Assembly (NCBI GenBank): GCA_002709085.1 | Contig: PAPR01000012.1 | Coordinates: 1 to 43,800 of the forward strand | Origin: Pseudooceanicola sp. | Lineage (GTDB): Bacteria > Pseudomonadota > Alphaproteobacteria > Rhodobacterales > Rhodobacteraceae | Direction: 5' to 3' | Length of the DNA stretch: 43,800 nt | Part shown: piece after piece, positions 23,144 through 43,652 of the stretch | Position numbering within the stretch: position 1 is the stretch's first letter | How the letters are laid out: the number at the start of each line of letters is the position of its first letter | The notes under the pieces: generated by a model | The model's database searches: none | Told to the model about the DNA's origin: nothing | Seen by the model: only the letters and a program-made list of their open reading frames with translations | Made by a program: the position numbers and the translations under genes

Positions 23144-23710
23144 TTAGGCCACAGACCCGCGAGATAGGGCGGCCACGCCGGTCCGTGCCATTTCGACCAA
23201 GCCCAGGGGACGCATGAGGTCGGCGAAGGCGTCGACCTTGTCCGAAGCCCCGGTCAGTTCGAATACAAAGCTGTCCAGTGTGCTGTCGACCACATTGGCG
23301 CGGAAGATATCAGCCAGCCGCAACGCCTCGACCCGCTTGTCACCGCTGCCGCTGACCTTCAGCAAGGCCAGCTCGCGCTCTACCGCCGGTCCTTCGACGG
23401 TGAGGTCGTTGACGCGGTGCACCGGGACGATGCGGCCCAGTTGCGCCTTGATCTGCTCGATCACCTGGGGCGTGCCACGGGTCACGATGGTGATGCGGCT
23501 GAGGTGTCCGGTGTGGTCGACCTCGGCCACCGTCAGACTGTCGATGTTGTAACCACGGCCCGAAAACAACCCGATGACGCGGGCCAGCACCCCCGCCTCG
23601 TTGTCCACCAACAGGGCGAGGGTGTGGGTTTCCTCAACATCCGAAAAGGTCGGACGCAGGTTATAGGCCGAATGTTTGTTTGCGCCTTTTTTGATCTGTA
23701 GTGCGGACAT
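23144..23710 (-). CDS. ilvN: acetolactate synthase small (regulatory) subunit
   Basis: 188 residues. IlvN/IlvH binds valine for feedback inhibition and stimulates the catalytic subunit. Seen: the N-terminal ACT domain (about residues 28-100: TLALLVDNEAGVLARVIGLFSGRGYNIDSLTVAEVDHTGHLSRITIVTRG, containing the Gly-rich valine-site loop) and the second ferredoxin-like half (ELALLKVSG...LADIFRANVVDSTLDSFVFELTGASDKVDAFADLMRPLG). It follows ilvB by 56 bases on the same strand, under the attenuator at 25.7 kb. The start MSALQIKKG lies just before the ACT domain. Confidence 0.96.
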   Translation of the reverse strand: MSALQIKKGANKHSAYNLRPTFSDVEETHTLALLVDNEAGVLARVIGLFSGRGYNIDSLTVAEVDHTGHLSRITIVTRGTPQVIEQIKAQLGRIVPVHRVNDLTVEGPAVERELALLKVSGSGDKRVEALRLADIFRANVVDSTLDSFVFELTGASDKVDAFADLMRPLGLVEMARTGVAALSRGSVA

Positions 23711-23766: not shown

Positions 23767-25521
23767 TCAGACCATGACCGCCCCGCCTTCCTTGATGGCA
23801 TCCTTGGTAGAGGCGTCGCCCAGCAACATCTTGTTGTGCGGCTCACCGCTCGGGATCATGGGAAAGCAGTTCTCGTGCTTTTCCACGAGGCAGTCAAAGA
23901 CCACCGGCCCGTCATGGTTGATCATCTCCATGATCGCGTCGTCCAGATCGGCCGGATCCTTGCACTGGATACCCTTGGCGCCAAAGGCTTCGGCCAGCTT
24001 GACGAAATCGGGCAAGGATTCAGACCAGGAGTGTGAATATCGCTCACCGTGGAGCAATTCCTGCCACTGGCGCACCATGCCGAGGCGTTCGTTGTTCAGG
24101 ATGAACTGCTTGACCGGCAGGCGGAATTGCATTGCGGTGCCCAGCTCCTGCATGTTCATTAACCACGATGCTTCTCCGGCCACGTTGATGACCAGCGCGT
24201 CGCGATGCGCCATCTGCACCCCGATGGAGGCCGGGAAGCCATAGCCCATGGTGCCGAGCCCACCGGAGGTCATCCAGCGGTTGGGCGCCTCGAACGTCAG
24301 ATATTGCGCGGCCCACATCTGATGCTGGCCCACCTCGGTGGTGATGTAGCGGTCACGCCCCTTGGTCAGCGCTTCGAGCCGTTCAAGCGCGTATTGCGGC
24401 TTGATCACCTTATCGGAGGGTTTGTAGTTGAGGCAGTTGATCGCGCGCCACTCCTCGATCTGTTTCCACCACTTTGCAATCGCTTCACGGTTCATCTTGC
24501 GGCCGCGCGACTTCCAGACCTTGAGCAGGTCCTCCAGCACATGCCCGACGTCCCCGACAATCGGGATGTCGACGCGGATCACCTTGTTGATCGACGACGG
24601 GTCTATGTCGATATGCGCCTTTTTCGAATGCGGGCTGAAGGCATCGAGGCGCCCGGTGATCCGGTCATCGAACCGCGCGCCGATATTGATCATCAGGTCG
24701 CAATCGTGCATCGCCATGTTGGCCTCGTAAAGACCGTGCATCCCGAGCATCCCGAGCCAGCCCTTGCCCGAAGCCGGATAGGCGCCAAGCCCCATGAGGG
24801 TCGAGGTGATGGGCGCGCCGGTCGCATCCACCAATTCGCTCAACAACTGGCTGGCCGCAGTGCCCGAGTTGATGACGCCGCCGCCGGTATAAAAAACCGG
24901 CTTCTTCGCGCTTTCCAGCGCCTCGACCAGTTCGATGATCGAATCCATGTCGCCCTTGACCTGCGGCTGGTAGCGCTGCGCGCTGGCCTTGGCAGGGGGT
25001 GTGTAGGTGCCATTGGCGAATTGCACGTCCTTGGGGATGTCGATCAGGACCGGTCCGGGACGTCCCGCTGTGGCGACGTGAAACGCCTCGTGCAGGGTGT
25101 GGGCGAGGCCCCCGGTATCCTTCACCAGCCAGTTGTGCTTGGTACATGGACGGGTGATGCCGACCGTGTCGGCCTCCTGAAACGCATCCGAGCCGATCAT
25201 GAAGGTCGGGACCTGACCGGTTAGCACCACGATCGGGATGGAATCCAGCAGCGCGTCGGTCGACCCGGTCACCGCATTGGTCGCGCCGGGGCCGGAGGTC
25301 ACCAGAACGACGCCGGGCTTGCCGGTCGAACGCGCGTAGCCCTCGGCCGCATGAACCGCGCCTTGTTCGTGGCGCACCAACACGTGCTGAATATCGTTCT
25401 GCTGGAAAATCTCGTCATAGATCGGCAGTACGGCACCACCCGGATAGCCGAAAATCGTGTCGACGCCCTGATCCTTCAGCGCCTGAACCACCATCCTTGC
25501 TCCAGTCATCTGCCGTGCCAT
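23767..25521 (-). CDS. ilvB: acetolactate synthase large (catalytic) subunit
   Basis: 584 residues. AHAS makes acetolactate or acetohydroxybutyrate, the first common step to valine, leucine and isoleucine, with ThDP, FAD and Mg2+. Seen: N-terminal GYPGGAVLPIYDE and RHEQGAVHAAEGYARSTGKPG (with the conserved ThDP glutamate), GPGATNAVTG, FAD-domain segments MLGMHGLYEANMAMH and INIGARFDDR, and the C-terminal ThDP motif beginning GEASWLMN and running to NNERLGMVRQWQELL. The biosynthetic, feedback-inhibited type is implied by the adjacent ilvN. A long leader with a Leu/Val/Ile leader peptide and terminator precedes it. The ilvI symbol is an equal synonym. Confidence 0.97.
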   Translation of the reverse strand: MARQMTGARMVVQALKDQGVDTIFGYPGGAVLPIYDEIFQQNDIQHVLVRHEQGAVHAAEGYARSTGKPGVVLVTSGPGATNAVTGSTDALLDSIPIVVLTGQVPTFMIGSDAFQEADTVGITRPCTKHNWLVKDTGGLAHTLHEAFHVATAGRPGPVLIDIPKDVQFANGTYTPPAKASAQRYQPQVKGDMDSIIELVEALESAKKPVFYTGGGVINSGTAASQLLSELVDATGAPITSTLMGLGAYPASGKGWLGMLGMHGLYEANMAMHDCDLMINIGARFDDRITGRLDAFSPHSKKAHIDIDPSSINKVIRVDIPIVGDVGHVLEDLLKVWKSRGRKMNREAIAKWWKQIEEWRAINCLNYKPSDKVIKPQYALERLEALTKGRDRYITTEVGQHQMWAAQYLTFEAPNRWMTSGGLGTMGYGFPASIGVQMAHRDALVINVAGEASWLMNMQELGTAMQFRLPVKQFILNNERLGMVRQWQELLHGERYSHSWSESLPDFVKLAEAFGAKGIQCKDPADLDDAIMEMINHDGPVVFDCLVEKHENCFPMIPSGEPHNKMLLGDASTKDAIKEGGAVMV

Positions 25522-25674
25522 TTCGCTTCTCCGTTTTGTGACCCTGCCGGGTCGGTCCGTGCCAGTTGAGGCACCTTCGTTCGCATGATGTCGTCCGCGT
25601 CGTGATCAAGTCGCGATCAAGCCGGGGTCAAGCTGGACATGGTCAGGCTTTGTCTTGTCTGAGCCTTGGCCAAT

Positions 25675-25704
25675 AAAAAAGCCCCCGGTTGGTTTTCCGG
25701 GGGC
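25675..25704 (-). terminator. attenuator terminator upstream of ilvB
   Basis: On the minus strand GCCCCCGG pairs with CCGGGGGC (arms 25697-25704 and 25681-25688) around an 8-base loop, followed by TTTTTT. It lies between the leader peptide and ilvB, not after a gene, so it works as a conditional terminator. A second inverted repeat (GCGCATGGG/CCCATGCGC, 25739-25747 and 25703-25711) overlaps its 5' arm by two bases. Confidence 0.85.
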
Positions 25705-25731
25705 GCATGGGGTCCTGATCAGGTTCCGGTG

Positions 25732-25779
25732 CTACCGGCCCATGCGCCTGTTTCCTACGATGACGACTAGCGTTCTCAT
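25732..25779 (-). CDS. ilvL: ilv operon leader peptide
   Basis: A 15-codon frame encodes MRTLVVIVGNRRMGR then TAG. Codons 4-8 are Leu-Val-Val-Ile-Val, exactly the products of the pathway. AGGAG lies 9 bases before the ATG, and a promoter lies 35 bases upstream. The codons just after the control run (11-14) form one arm of a 9-bp inverted repeat, so ribosome stalling would change the RNA fold, and an intrinsic terminator follows before ilvB. This is the full layout of transcription attenuation as known for ilv operons of enterobacteria. The exact antiterminator pairing could not be settled by eye. Too short for routine gene calling. Confidence 0.85.
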   Translation of the reverse strand: MRTLVVIVGNRRMGR

Positions 25780-25813
25780 GCCCGAAGGCTCCTGTTTCTT
25801 ACGTGCATCTCGA

Positions 25814-25842
25814 GGATTAGGCAGTTGACAGGGTAAGGTCAA
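25814..25842 (-). promoter_or_regulatory. promoter of the ilv leader-ilvBN operon, with overlapping palindrome
   Basis: On the minus strand: TTGACC (25837-25842), 17 bases, TAATCC (25814-25819). The inverted repeat GTTGAC-N8-GTCAAC (25824-25843) overlaps the -35 and spacer and could bind a regulator. The predicted transcript starts near 25807, about 28 bases before the leader peptide. Confidence 0.6.
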
Positions 25843-25843
25843 C

Positions 25844-26112
25844 AGCAATTCGCTGCTAAAAATGTCGCTGAAACCGTATTTTCTTTATGAATATTGCGCA
25901 CTAAGTCAAATTTCTTTGCGAAAGCGCGCTGCGGGCGGAGAATCAGCTTGCCGGAACAGAGCCGGGCGAAGGGCTTGAATGTTGGCGCTGGATGGACCCT
26001 GGCATTAGACGCATGGCGGACCGATCTATCCGTCCACTCCTTCAAACCTGCGAACGTGCATGTTCCCCTGTGCAGCGGGCTGCGGCCTTGGCCCGACAAA
26101 GGCCAATGGTGA
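25844..26112. other. gap upstream of the ilv leader
   Basis: About 270 bases with no supported gene. The AT-rich part at 25855-25910 may contain upstream promoter elements. One minus-strand open frame here shows no family features and no ribosome-binding site. Confidence 0.4.
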
Positions 26113-26316
26113 AGCTGCGGTGAATTCCTGAACCACCTGTCCGCGTGGTTCAGCCGGGGTCTGGGACTAGGTCGGACGGTTCAGCGACAACGACAACGGC
26201 ATGTCCGGCGGGTCATTGACCATGATCACAAGGGCGCCGATGAACTGGCGAGCATGCTGGAAAGCTTTGACGCCGTGACCTCGGGTCAGGCAGATGCCTA
26301 CCATGGCGCGAAGTAA
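26113..26316 (+). pseudogene. degraded coding fragment (about 67 codons, no start codon)
   Basis: An open plus-strand frame between TGA (26110) and TAA (26314) reads like protein: EFLNHLSAWFSRGLGLGR near the start and RRVIDHDHKGADELASMLES then FDAVTSGQADAYHGAK at the end. No usable start codon opens it. An ATG at 26106 with different phase could be the original start if one frameshift occurred nearby. A bidirectional terminator follows 90 bases later. Family not recognised. It could also be a real small gene with an unusual start. Confidence 0.35.
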
Positions 26317-26469: not shown

Positions 26470-26790
26470 TCAGTCGTCGTGCACAGTGCCTAGGTTGGTC
26501 ATCACCATCTTGGCCACCGACATGTCGCGCAGACCGGAAAGCTGCACATGGCGCGGATCCGCGCGGTAGGCGATCAGCGCATCGGCATCCGGGAATTGCA
26601 CGCGATGGATTTCGTCCGGGCCGTCGGGCGCGTCGGTCTTGGACGGTCGGTCCACGCCGAGGATCTGCCCGCCGTGATCCTGAACGATGCCGAGGATCAG
26701 GTCCTGGAACTTGCGAAAGTCGGCTTCGGCGCCCGGTGCCTCCCAAAGTTCGGCCAAGAGGTTGCAGCTGCGCCCTGTCACACCGATCAA
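26470..26790 (-). CDS. small alpha/beta-barrel-like protein of unknown function
   Basis: 106 residues if the TTG at 26790 is used; that codon overlaps the bpt stop (TTGA). A GTG at 26781 is an alternative. The sequence ([39 protein letters not shown], then [21 protein letters not shown]) resembles the ferredoxin-like dimeric alpha/beta-barrel group (DUF1330/stress-responsive barrel), whose members have varied roles. No catalytic residues can be named. It is the last gene of the bpt operon, followed directly by an intrinsic terminator. Confidence 0.7.
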
Positions 26791-27605
26791 CCGCGCGGTG
26801 ATCTGAGGTCAGGCAGCGAGATATTTGCCACCTGTTCTGCAATCGGGTCGGTCTTGAGCGGGTGGCGTTCACTGTCATAATCGGCGGGGTCGCGCATCCG
26901 TGCCCATTCGCCTCCGACATATAGCTCAACCCCCTTGAATTTTGTCTTATAACCCATCTTGGGCGAGCCGGGGACCCAATAGCCGAGGTAGACATAGGGA
27001 AGCCCGGCTTCTCGCGCGATCTCGATATGATCGAGGATCATGTAGGTGCCCAGACTGTCGCCGGGGTGATCGGGATCGTAGAACGAATAGACCATCGACA
27101 ATCCATCATCCAGCACGTCGGTCAGGGCCACCCCGGTCAACCCGCGATCTGGGTGGGTATATTCGATGACTCGCGACCGGATCGGAGTTTCCTCGACCAT
27201 GGCCGCGAATTCAAAGACGTCCATGTCGGCCATGCCGCCGTCGGCATGGCGATGATCGAGGTAGTCGCGAAACAGTTCGTATTGCTCCTCGGTCGCCCAG
27301 GGCGACGTCGCTCGCCGCTGGACCTGCGCATTGCGGCGCTGCGTCTTGCGCTGGCTCTTGCTCGGGGCAAAGGCCGAGACGTCTATGCGCGCGGAAATGC
27401 AGGCGGCACAATCCGCGCAGGAGGGCCGGTAAAGAACATTCTGCGACCGCCGAAAACCTTGTTTTGACAAGGTGTCATTCAATTGTGACGCCGCGTCCCC
27501 ACTGAGCGAGGTAAACAGCTTCCTCTCCATCCGGCCCTCAAGGTAGGGGCAAGGCTGAGGGGCCGTCACATAGAATTGCGGCGTCAGAGGCAGTGTGTGG
27601 CGCAT
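26787..27605 (-). CDS. bpt: aspartate/glutamate leucyltransferase (N-degron pathway)
   Basis: 272 residues. Bpt attaches leucine from Leu-tRNA to proteins with N-terminal Asp or Glu, marking them for ClpS/ClpAP. Seen: [22 protein letters not shown], with the conserved CPY near the N-terminus, [32 protein letters not shown] (the Cys-rich block shared with ATE1), [36 protein letters not shown], and [24 protein letters not shown]. The N-terminal cysteine layout and 240-280 residue length are those of bacterial Bpt rather than eukaryotic ATE1. Its stop overlaps the next small gene. A TTTGACGGCG direct repeat lies about 130 bases upstream. Confidence 0.95.
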
Positions 27606-42957: not shown

Positions 42958-43338
42958 AGGGCCGGAACTGGCGATTGATCTTGTCCAGCGGACATTGATC
43001 GGCAGGCTGACGATGGGTGGCTTTGATCTTCTTGCCCCGCCGAACGCCTTGAATGCCAAGCTGGCCTATCAAACGCTCGACGGTGCATCGGGCGATATCA
43101 ACCTTCTCGCGCTTCATTGCATGCCACAGCTTGCGCGCGCCGTAGACAGACCGGTTCTTCGTCCAAACATTCTTCATCTCCTTGCGAAGATACACATCTC
43201 GCTTGGCCCGATCCGATGCCCGGTCAGGATCACGCTCGATGGCAAGGCGTTCATAGAAAGTCGAGGGGCGATTTGCAGCACTCGGCAGATCGGCTCGACC
43301 CTATGCTCTGCGCGATGGTCCTTTATGAAGGCAATCAT
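42955..43338 (-). pseudogene. IS3-family transposase orfB, frameshifted and truncated
   Basis: The ATG at 43338 overlaps the orfA stop (ATGA). First frame: MIAFIKDHRAEHRVEPICRV then LQIAP. One base is missing near 43265; the next frame continues STFYERLAIERDPDRASDRA, then RKEMKNVWTKNRSVYGARKL, then GQLGIQGVRRGKKIKATHRQ and CPLDKINRQF. This is the N-terminal HTH_21 part of IS3 orfB. The DDE catalytic core (rve domain) is absent because the sequence breaks near 42960. Function lost. Confidence 0.85.
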
Positions 43339-43652
43339 TTGCGGAATGGGCGGTCGAGCTCCGTCCCGCTGCCCGGAAGGGCTTTGCGGAGCAAGGTTCC
43401 GAGAGGGGCAAAATAAGCAGATGCCTTCTTGAGGATCTCGTTGGCCTGACGAAGCTGCCGGTTCTCGCGTTCAAGCTCCTTGATGCGATCACGCTCTGCC
43501 GTGGTCAGGCCGTCGCGCTTACCAGTATCCGTCTCATGCTGCTTGACCCAGATGCGTAAGCTGTCTCTGCTGCATCCAACCTTCTGAGAGATCGACAAGA
43601 TTGCTGCTGATCTGCTCGCGTATTCGCCCTCGTGATCCAATACCATCCGCAC
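43335..43652 (-). pseudogene. IS3-family transposase orfA (start codon lost)
   Basis: About 105 codons from GTG 43652. Family similarity continues upstream for some 20 codons (KTKNETRNPEELRARA) to 43718 without any usable start codon. HTH: SAAILSISQKVGCSRDSLRIWVKQHE. A leucine-zipper-like ending (RIKELERENRQLRQANEILKKASAYFA) is as in IS3 orfA. After YFA a stretch of about 14 codons (PLGTLLRKALPGSG, 43361-43406) appears inserted before ELDRPFRK; I know related copies without it. In-frame with the IS66 tail, separated by one TGA. Confidence 0.8.

Follow-up and report, generated by a model that had tools for sequence, protein, structure and literature searches.

In the amino acid attenuators of enterobacteria, alternative hairpins overlap extensively. 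Those of ilvGMEDA, ilvBN, leu and trp, listed in a passage of PMC1183508, resemble the element described here in that a ribosome on regulatory codons acts as the sensor and the terminator is intrinsic. They differ from it in that, in ours, the terminator and the candidate antiterminator have 3 nt in common. Closer counterparts are found in the Alphaproteobacteria. An ilvB leader peptide of this class was named as already described, with reference to Vitreschak et al. 2004, in a passage of PMC1273637 (2005); an ilvIH cis-regulatory element of Sinorhizobium meliloti, taken from Vitreschak et al. 2004, appears in a passage of PMC2573895 (2008); and the Caulobacter ilvBN leader is described in a passage of PMC4117421, where attenuation is credited to Tarleton et al. 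1994. As far as these citing passages tell, the alphaproteobacterial ilvB and ilvIH attenuators share with ours the branched-chain leader frame, the terminator, the operon and the taxonomic class. The ilvBNC attenuator of Corynebacterium also has a leader frame and hairpins 5′ of ilvB (PMC11857589 and PMC10272879), but it belongs to another phylum, and it is likened to ours here by description and not by comparison of sequences. The present element belongs to this kind already in print, and its novelty outside the classical enterobacterial examples was overstated in the sequence-only reading from which this work started, since passages of PMC1273637 and PMC4117421 already cite alphaproteobacterial ilvB or ilvBN attenuation. 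Two aspects treated below were not found in the open-licence literature searched, namely a transporter branch of these leaders and the nature of the Atu_C8 RNA family. PMC1273637 is presumably the paper of Corbino et al., and PMC2573895 that of Valverde et al.

The window, by which we mean the whole stretch of 43,800 nucleotides that was analysed, is taken from contig C12 in a draft genome of 3.0 Mb that is 77% complete, and the closest relatives of its ilvB gene are from Rhodobacterales. It carries the following features:

25837 to 25842, minus strand: −35 box TTGACC, read in the sequence; TTGAC recurs upstream in relatives
25814 to 25819, minus strand: −10 box TAATCC, separated from the −35 box by a 17-nt spacer, read in the sequence; poor match to the consensus
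25732 to 25779, minus strand: leader frame MRTLVVIVGNRRMGR plus stop codon, 15 codons; alignable together with the terminator in 63 of 80 other ilvB loci
25739 to 25748, minus strand: 5′ arm of the inverted repeat P1, GGCGCATGGG, inside codons 11–14, from sequence and alignment
25726 to 25738, minus strand: P2, hairpin around the stop codon; CCG-GTAA-CGG in most relatives
25714 to 25723, minus strand: P3, small hairpin CCT-GATC-AGG, from the fold; poorly conserved as aligned
25702 to 25711, minus strand: 3′ arm of P1, CCCATGCGCC, whose last 3 nt (25704–25702) double as the base of the terminator stem
25681 to 25704, minus strand: intrinsic terminator stem-loop with 8 pairs and an 8-nt loop, from a terminator search
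25675 to 25680, minus strand: T6 tract of the terminator, read in the sequence
23767 to 25521, minus strand: ilvB, acetolactate synthase large subunit, the putative regulated gene (NF006581, 1137 bits, above cut-off)
23144 to 23710, minus strand: ilvN, acetolactate synthase small subunit, the next gene (NF008864 and TIGR00119, above cut-off)

Promoter words, leader, repeat, terminator and ilvB stand on the minus strand in the order that had been claimed, each where it had been located, and a GGAG motif that may serve as ribosome-binding site lies 5′ of the leader ATG. The leader reads ATG AGA ACG CTA GTC GTC ATC GTA GGA AAC AGG CGC ATG GGC CGG TAG (25779–25732), and thus has the expected 15 residues, with Leu-Val-Val-Ile-Val encoded by the run CTA GTC GTC ATC GTA at codons 4–8. 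The inverted repeat does start within the last codons (11–14), but is 10 bp long and not 9 bp; the terminator stem (25704–25681) with its TTTTTT (25680–25675) lies ahead of ilvB as proposed. The proposed promoter fared less evenly: TTGACC-N17-TAATCC is present, but its −10 word is far from the consensus and a strict consensus scan of 25400–26200 retrieved no promoter. This candidate gains support from relatives, since all 64 aligned loci have TTGAC within the 150 nt that precede the leader start, where single-base shuffling would lead one to expect 7.6; TAATGT is the best-matching −10 hexamer in 24 of these 64. The stretch between terminator and ilvB (25674–25522) measures 153 nt in the window and holds repeated CTTGA(T/C)C words, against 29–82 nt from the end of the model match to ilvB at the other Rhodobacteraceae ilvB loci compared.

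Both genes behind the leader, ilvB and ilvN, score above their NCBIfam cut-offs and belong to branched-chain amino acid synthesis. Judged from sequence, the best reading of the locus is that ilvBN is very probably controlled by ribosome-mediated transcription attenuation in response to branched-chain amino acids. The earlier proposal of a leader-peptide attenuator for ilvBN is upheld by the conserved codon run, the terminator and the two downstream genes. At 15 residues, the leader peptide is too short for usual gene calling.

We compared the 300 nt 5′ of ilvB in the window and in 79 of 80 fetched loci (L009 being too short), counting loci with a terminator, those that also have an I/L/V-rich frame before it, and those in which, in addition, the two are linked by an inverted repeat that is perfect over 8 nt or more. 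These counts were 70, 64 and 54 of 80, the window passing all three, against means of 1.4, 0.0 and 0.0 in 20 sets of dinucleotide shuffles. Under a stricter terminator rule, which misses the window, they fell to 32, 29 and 25 of 80. The alignment built from these loci (A1) comprises the window and 63 of the 80 others, including L064, L066 and L078, whose terminators were missed by the script and recognized by eye. The 17 loci left outside are L009, which lies at a contig end; L045, L057 and L059, which are from Paracoccus and have no leader; L069, L072–L077, L079 and L082, in which no such leader was recognized; and L071, L080, L081 and L083, in which a more divergent leader is present.

We searched 198 genomes of the window's family, representing 197 genera, with a covariance model built from A1 (R1). 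It matches 171 of them, and the 30 strongest of these 171 matches, for which the loci were fetched, all lie just upstream of ilvB. Such control of the synthesis of branched-chain amino acids is well supported and appears to extend across the family. The attenuator nevertheless appears dispensable: 27 of the 198 genomes have no match, and the Paracoccus loci (3/3 among the 80) show no recognizable leader or terminator while keeping a TTGACC word 5′ of ilvB, so that ilvB can do without it. In these three loci the attenuator has likely been lost. The window's own genome contains a single strong copy, at this locus, the next match having an E value of 0.15. Eight second matches were detected within the family, one before ilvB (L158), one before a gene for a transporter of the MFS type (L159) and six before neither (L160–L165). 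The first of these belongs to a genome (G440) in which ilvB is present twice, both times preceded by an attenuator (L149 on contig C49 and L158 on contig C24; 95.8 and 74.3 bits), and the second copy may be a real duplicate or contamination, which is estimated at 2%.

The expectation that the branched-chain codons and the terminator would be conserved among relatives was borne out. The peptides of 64 loci (the window and 63 relatives) were aligned by their stop codons. A block of five adjacent positions holds isoleucine, leucine or valine in 89, 98, 94, 91 and 91% of them, against 12–19% at the two positions before and 3–14% at the three after; these percentages are inflated, since the loci were chosen for having a leader and a terminator (L064, L066 and L078 by eye) and their relatedness was left uncorrected. 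A Shine-Dalgarno-like motif, loosely defined, precedes the leader in 57 of the 64 loci. The choice of codons is equally distinctive, within the weight that the relatedness of the loci allows to such figures. Compared with ilvB itself at these loci, GTA makes up 46% of leader valine codons (n = 174) against 4.3% (n = 2799), CTA 37% of leader leucine codons (n = 86) against 1.6% (n = 2990) and ATA 10% of leader isoleucine codons (n = 69) against 1.2% (n = 2261), whereas CTG accounts for 5% of leucine codons in the leaders and 60% in ilvB. Such a bias towards rare codons is expected if the frame serves as a sensor rather than as a protein. Strong codon bias is described for attenuation leaders, CUA being a codon of the leu attenuator of S. 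typhimurium (passage of PMC1183508). Three leaders from Rubellimicrobium and Roseicyclus (L066, L078 and L056) have retained P1 and a hairpin resembling a terminator, but contain fewer branched-chain codons, as in MDCFVDDVGKKRMGR; they are possibly decaying sensors.

Covariation was counted over the 64 aligned sequences against 500 shuffles, whose counts are not probabilities since the sequences are related. Changes on both sides occur in 12 of 20 pairs against 4.1 in shuffles, none of the 500 reaching this value. P1 and the terminator are the best kept helices: P1 is paired in 95.7% of cells, with changes on both sides at four of its nine counted pairs, and the five counted inner pairs of the terminator are formed in 100%. 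The consensus pairs of P2 are formed in 92.2% of cells. For P3 the figure is 39.1% over the 64 sequences, and the search for covariation was unproductive there. This last value bears on the idea that the leader is a metabolite-binding riboswitch containing a fortuitous small frame, which could be suggested by the three-way-junction-like fold of P1, P2 and P3, by a GNRA-type loop in most relatives and by the biosynthetic operon downstream. Besides the poor pairing of P3, the strong synonymous-codon bias and the fixed register of the I/L/V codons argue against it, and a search of Rfam retrieved no riboswitch or T-box at the leader at gathering score, and none up to E 10 in 25600–25900. We consider such a riboswitch very improbable.

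The last four residues of the leader are nearly always RMGR in the 64 peptides, likely because the 5′ arm of P1 is read as protein in codons 11–14. The sequence of P1 itself is nearly invariant across the aligned leaders, beyond what pairing would need, which could also be explained if the terminated leader acted chiefly in trans, as a small RNA or a small peptide, with P1 and RMGR kept for that purpose. There is a precedent in the trp attenuator RNA rnTrpL of Sinorhizobium and its peptide peTrpL (passage of PMC10117765), and the related Atu_C8 is classed as an sRNA in Rfam. However, the RMGR residues change at some divergent loci while the pairing of P1 is kept, as also seen in its two-sided changes, so that the end of the peptide seems to follow the RNA. 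Moreover, the place of the leader just upstream of ilvB is constant in the 30 family loci examined, and a function in trans would account neither for the I/L/V codons nor for the use of rare synonyms among them. A role chiefly in trans thus seems unlikely to us, and we retain attenuation in cis as the preferred reading.

Atu_C8 (RF02502) is described in Rfam as a 'Rhizobiales sRNA' and typed as an sRNA gene, with a gathering score of 50 bits; it is listed among benchmark sRNA families (passage of PMC5913331). The window scores 26.8 bits against this family (E 0.002, or 0.00098 in a shorter stretch), which is below membership. A Mesorhizobium locus (L083) reaches 100.9 bits at 2298–2419, directly upstream of an ilvB match that begins at 2501, and matches below the cut-off (32–39 bits) lie 5′ of ilvB in L077, L071, L081, L086 and L085. 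RF02502 was unmatched at the further loci L072, L073, L079, L080, L082, L009, L045, L046, L057, L059, L069 and L074–L076. Among 36 genomes of one other family, seven have a match, above the cut-off in six, and these six loci all lie upstream of a Bcr/CflA-type MFS gene; their leaders contain a valine-containing frame whose ATG seemingly comes right after the promoter. A class search retrieved matches in 5 of 289 genomes, above the cut-off in one.

Atu_C8 resembles the window's element in its leader frame (which ends like GRRMGKA in several cases), its P1 (GCGCAUGGG/CCCAUGCGC), its stop-codon hairpin and its terminator, all in the same order. It differs in that the terminator is separate from P1 by about 8 nt, and in that an MFS transporter gene instead of ilvB follows at the six full-score loci outside Mesorhizobium. 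R1 gives 17–23 bits (E 0.002–0.05) on the Atu_C8-type loci L083, L084 and L090–L094, and RF02502 gives no match up to E 0.1 on the MFS-type loci L101–L111 and L159 described below or on L096 and L097. These weak scores in both directions, together with the shared order of parts, are the basis of the link between Atu_C8 and the window's kind. We had considered Atu_C8 to be a chance look-alike, as L084 adjoins an MFS gene and not ilvB; this idea was undone by the frame of L084, MRMMQVSVVVGRRMGKAA, and by the 100.9-bit match at L083. The family may be mis-typed as sRNA. In the open-licence literature searched, no treatment of Atu_C8 as an attenuator was found, and its accession turned up in the benchmark list alone; if our suggestion is true, a benchmark family that Rfam types as sRNA would be an attenuator leader.

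Similar leaders precede transporter genes well beyond the Atu_C8-type loci. In a class sample of 385 genomes, R1 matched 30 at E ≤ 0.01, five from the window's family and 25 others. The 11 strong matches outside the family (42–72 bits, L101–L111, from ten families) all precede an MFS gene. The MFS protein of L084, which scores above the TIGR00710 cut-off (Bcr/CflA family efflux), was compared with these loci by tblastn, and its matches, at 45–60% identity, begin 27–130 nt 3′ of the leaders. Another 14 weak matches (L112–L125, E ≥ 6e-5) were rejected as members, tblastn revealing neither ilvB nor an MFS gene behind them. A second model (R2) was built from 12 MFS-type leaders, namely L101–L111 and L159, the latter from the window's family. 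R2 matches 167 of the 198 genomes of that family and 17 of the 385 genomes of the class sample, which are the five family genomes and the 11 strong genomes of R1 plus one weak match. Leaders of the ilvB type and of the MFS type thus recognize each other. One genome (G500) has both kinds, one before ilvB and the other (L159) before an MFS gene.

These leaders also occur on plasmids. In a set of 12 plasmid-borne MFS relatives, hand-picked from 30 listed among at least 5000 records, R2 has a match 5′ of the gene in eight. Four of these are strong (66–73 bits; Roseobacter denitrificans OCh 114 pTB1, Phaeobacter piscinae, Leisingera caerulea and Burkholderia arboris) and four weak (17–26 bits; Rhizobium etli, Phyllobacterium, Rhizobium sp. 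007 and Rhizobium lusitanum). No R2 match was detected 5′ of the plasmid MFS gene in Agrobacterium tumefaciens, Pseudorhodobacter turbinis, Mesorhizobium mediterraneum and Paracoccus pantotrophus (4/12). Altogether, MFS-leader loci are L101–L111, L159, L084, L090–L094, L186–L188 and L196, with L190, L193, L195 and L197 as weaker cases.

The two kinds of leaders differ in composition, the run before MFS genes being mostly valine. The richest five-residue stretch of 25 MFS-type peptides (Atu_C8-type included) contains 76 V, 10 I and 7 L in total, against 166 V, 58 I and 76 L in 64 ilvB-type peptides, and leucine is found in this stretch in 7 of the 25 against 59 of the 64. Covariation among the 12 MFS-type sequences was not clearly above shuffles, the score being reached in 28 of 500 and the number of paired cells in 194 of 500. 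This is unconvincing, and the predicted MFS-type structure therefore rests mainly on its likeness to the ilvB type.

It is thus tempting to suggest that one leader-RNA module is used before both ilvBN and Bcr/CflA-type MFS genes, with the Atu_C8 'sRNA' as one of its branches. This module would consist of a short frame with Val/Ile/Leu codons, P1 spanning the end of that frame, the stop-codon hairpin and the terminator. It would serve ilvBN in Rhodobacteraceae and Mesorhizobium, and MFS genes in other alphaproteobacteria and on at least one plasmid of Burkholderia. Charging of valine-tRNA would in that case govern a transporter that is annotated as multidrug efflux, and the predicted substrate is valine or a valine-linked compound. 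We consider this two-target reading probable, and hold it with less confidence because the cross-scores of RF02502 and R1 are weak. No report of a valine-codon attenuator before a Bcr/CflA gene was found in the open-licence literature searched. If the reading is true, a Bcr/CflA group annotated as drug efflux would be tied to valine, with a substrate that can be tested.

At the ilvBN locus, the leader, its codon run, P1, P2 and the terminator, as well as their conservation and paired changes, are read directly in the aligned loci. Under ribosome-mediated attenuation, RNA polymerase would start at the promoter and a ribosome would translate the 15-codon leader. If Leu-, Val- and Ile-tRNA are charged, the ribosome would reach the stop codon and cover both the 5′ arm of P1 (codons 11–14) and P2, and the terminator would form ahead of ilvB. 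If Leu-, Val- or Ile-tRNA is uncharged, the ribosome would wait at codons 4–8, upstream of P1, whose 5′ arm would stay free for the most part or entirely; P1 (with P2) would then form before the terminator is transcribed and hold its basal pairs, and the polymerase would read through into ilvBN more often. From the arrangement of these parts we infer translation, stalling and a response of read-through, and also that the 3-nt overlap is sufficient to spoil termination, the latter being the weak step of the mechanism. By eye, P1 and the terminator overlap by 2–4 nt in Rhodobacterales and MFS-type leaders, the window having 3 nt. Since termination depends sensitively on the final base pairs that close the stem beside the U tract, this small overlap might suffice.

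Folding did not reveal the mutually exclusive structures that had been predicted for this leader. With the ribosome modelled as a 12-nt footprint, and taking means over 64 leaders, the inner terminator pairs had a pairing probability of 0.94 when the ribosome was on the last branched-chain codon and 0.97 when it was at the stop codon, so that the core of the terminator forms in both states. The outer two pairs came out at 0.92 and 0.98, respectively, and at 0.66 without a ribosome. When the whole P1 arm was free, these outer pairs dropped to 0.73 against 0.97, being below 0.5 in 11 of the 64 leaders and lower by more than 0.2 in 21. Availability of P1 weakened the terminator, as judged by the free energy released when its stem is completed, by 5.0 kcal/mol on average, against 4.6 kcal/mol with the 5′ arm of P1 scrambled, which indicates that hardly any of this weakening is owed to P1. 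The weakening amounts to 7.4 kcal/mol in the window itself (the scrambled control being a mean of the 64 leaders only), 5.9 kcal/mol in the 12 MFS-type leaders and 2.6 kcal/mol in five of the six Atu_C8-type MFS leaders (L092 was skipped). In the RNA lacking the 3′ half of the terminator, 2.7 bases of the terminator arm are already paired on average and 5 in the window, which speaks for attenuation. In the fold of the bare 132-nt leader the ribosome-binding region pairs with the terminator 3′ half (z −2.4), which speaks against a two-state switch. A strong thermodynamic switch was rejected, as P1 and the terminator share 3 nt and P1 does not exclude the terminator at equilibrium.

Our best guess is that P1 acts as antiterminator through the few shared nucleotides because it forms earlier in time, a guess about as likely to be right as wrong. 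Alternatively, P1 could be a pause and coupling hairpin that holds the polymerase until the ribosome arrives, the decision then being taken by another structure or by kinetics. The compatibility of P1 and terminator at equilibrium would fit such a role, as would the distance of about 8 nt between them in Atu_C8-type leaders, where the overlap cannot be the mechanism, and so cannot be universal, even though P1 is, with the terminator, the best kept helix. On the other hand, neither inspection by eye nor the folds revealed another conserved segment competing with the terminator arms in Rhodobacterales leaders, and P1 does touch the terminator base there and in MFS-type leaders. We regard the pause hairpin as possible, though less likely than not. 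If the attenuation reading is true, a conserved attenuator with a barely overlapping repeat and terminator would offer a system for finding how few basal pairs need to be held to stop termination.

Two other elements of the window were noticed. On the minus strand, 5′ of the ilv leader, 26787–27605 encodes a protein with arginine-tRNA-protein transferase domains (Pfam ATE_N and ATE_C). Further away, 43264–43370 on the minus strand matches the Rfam ALIL pseudoknot at 65.1 bits, which we take to be an element of IS3-type transposase frameshifting, and which points to an insertion sequence near the end of the contig.
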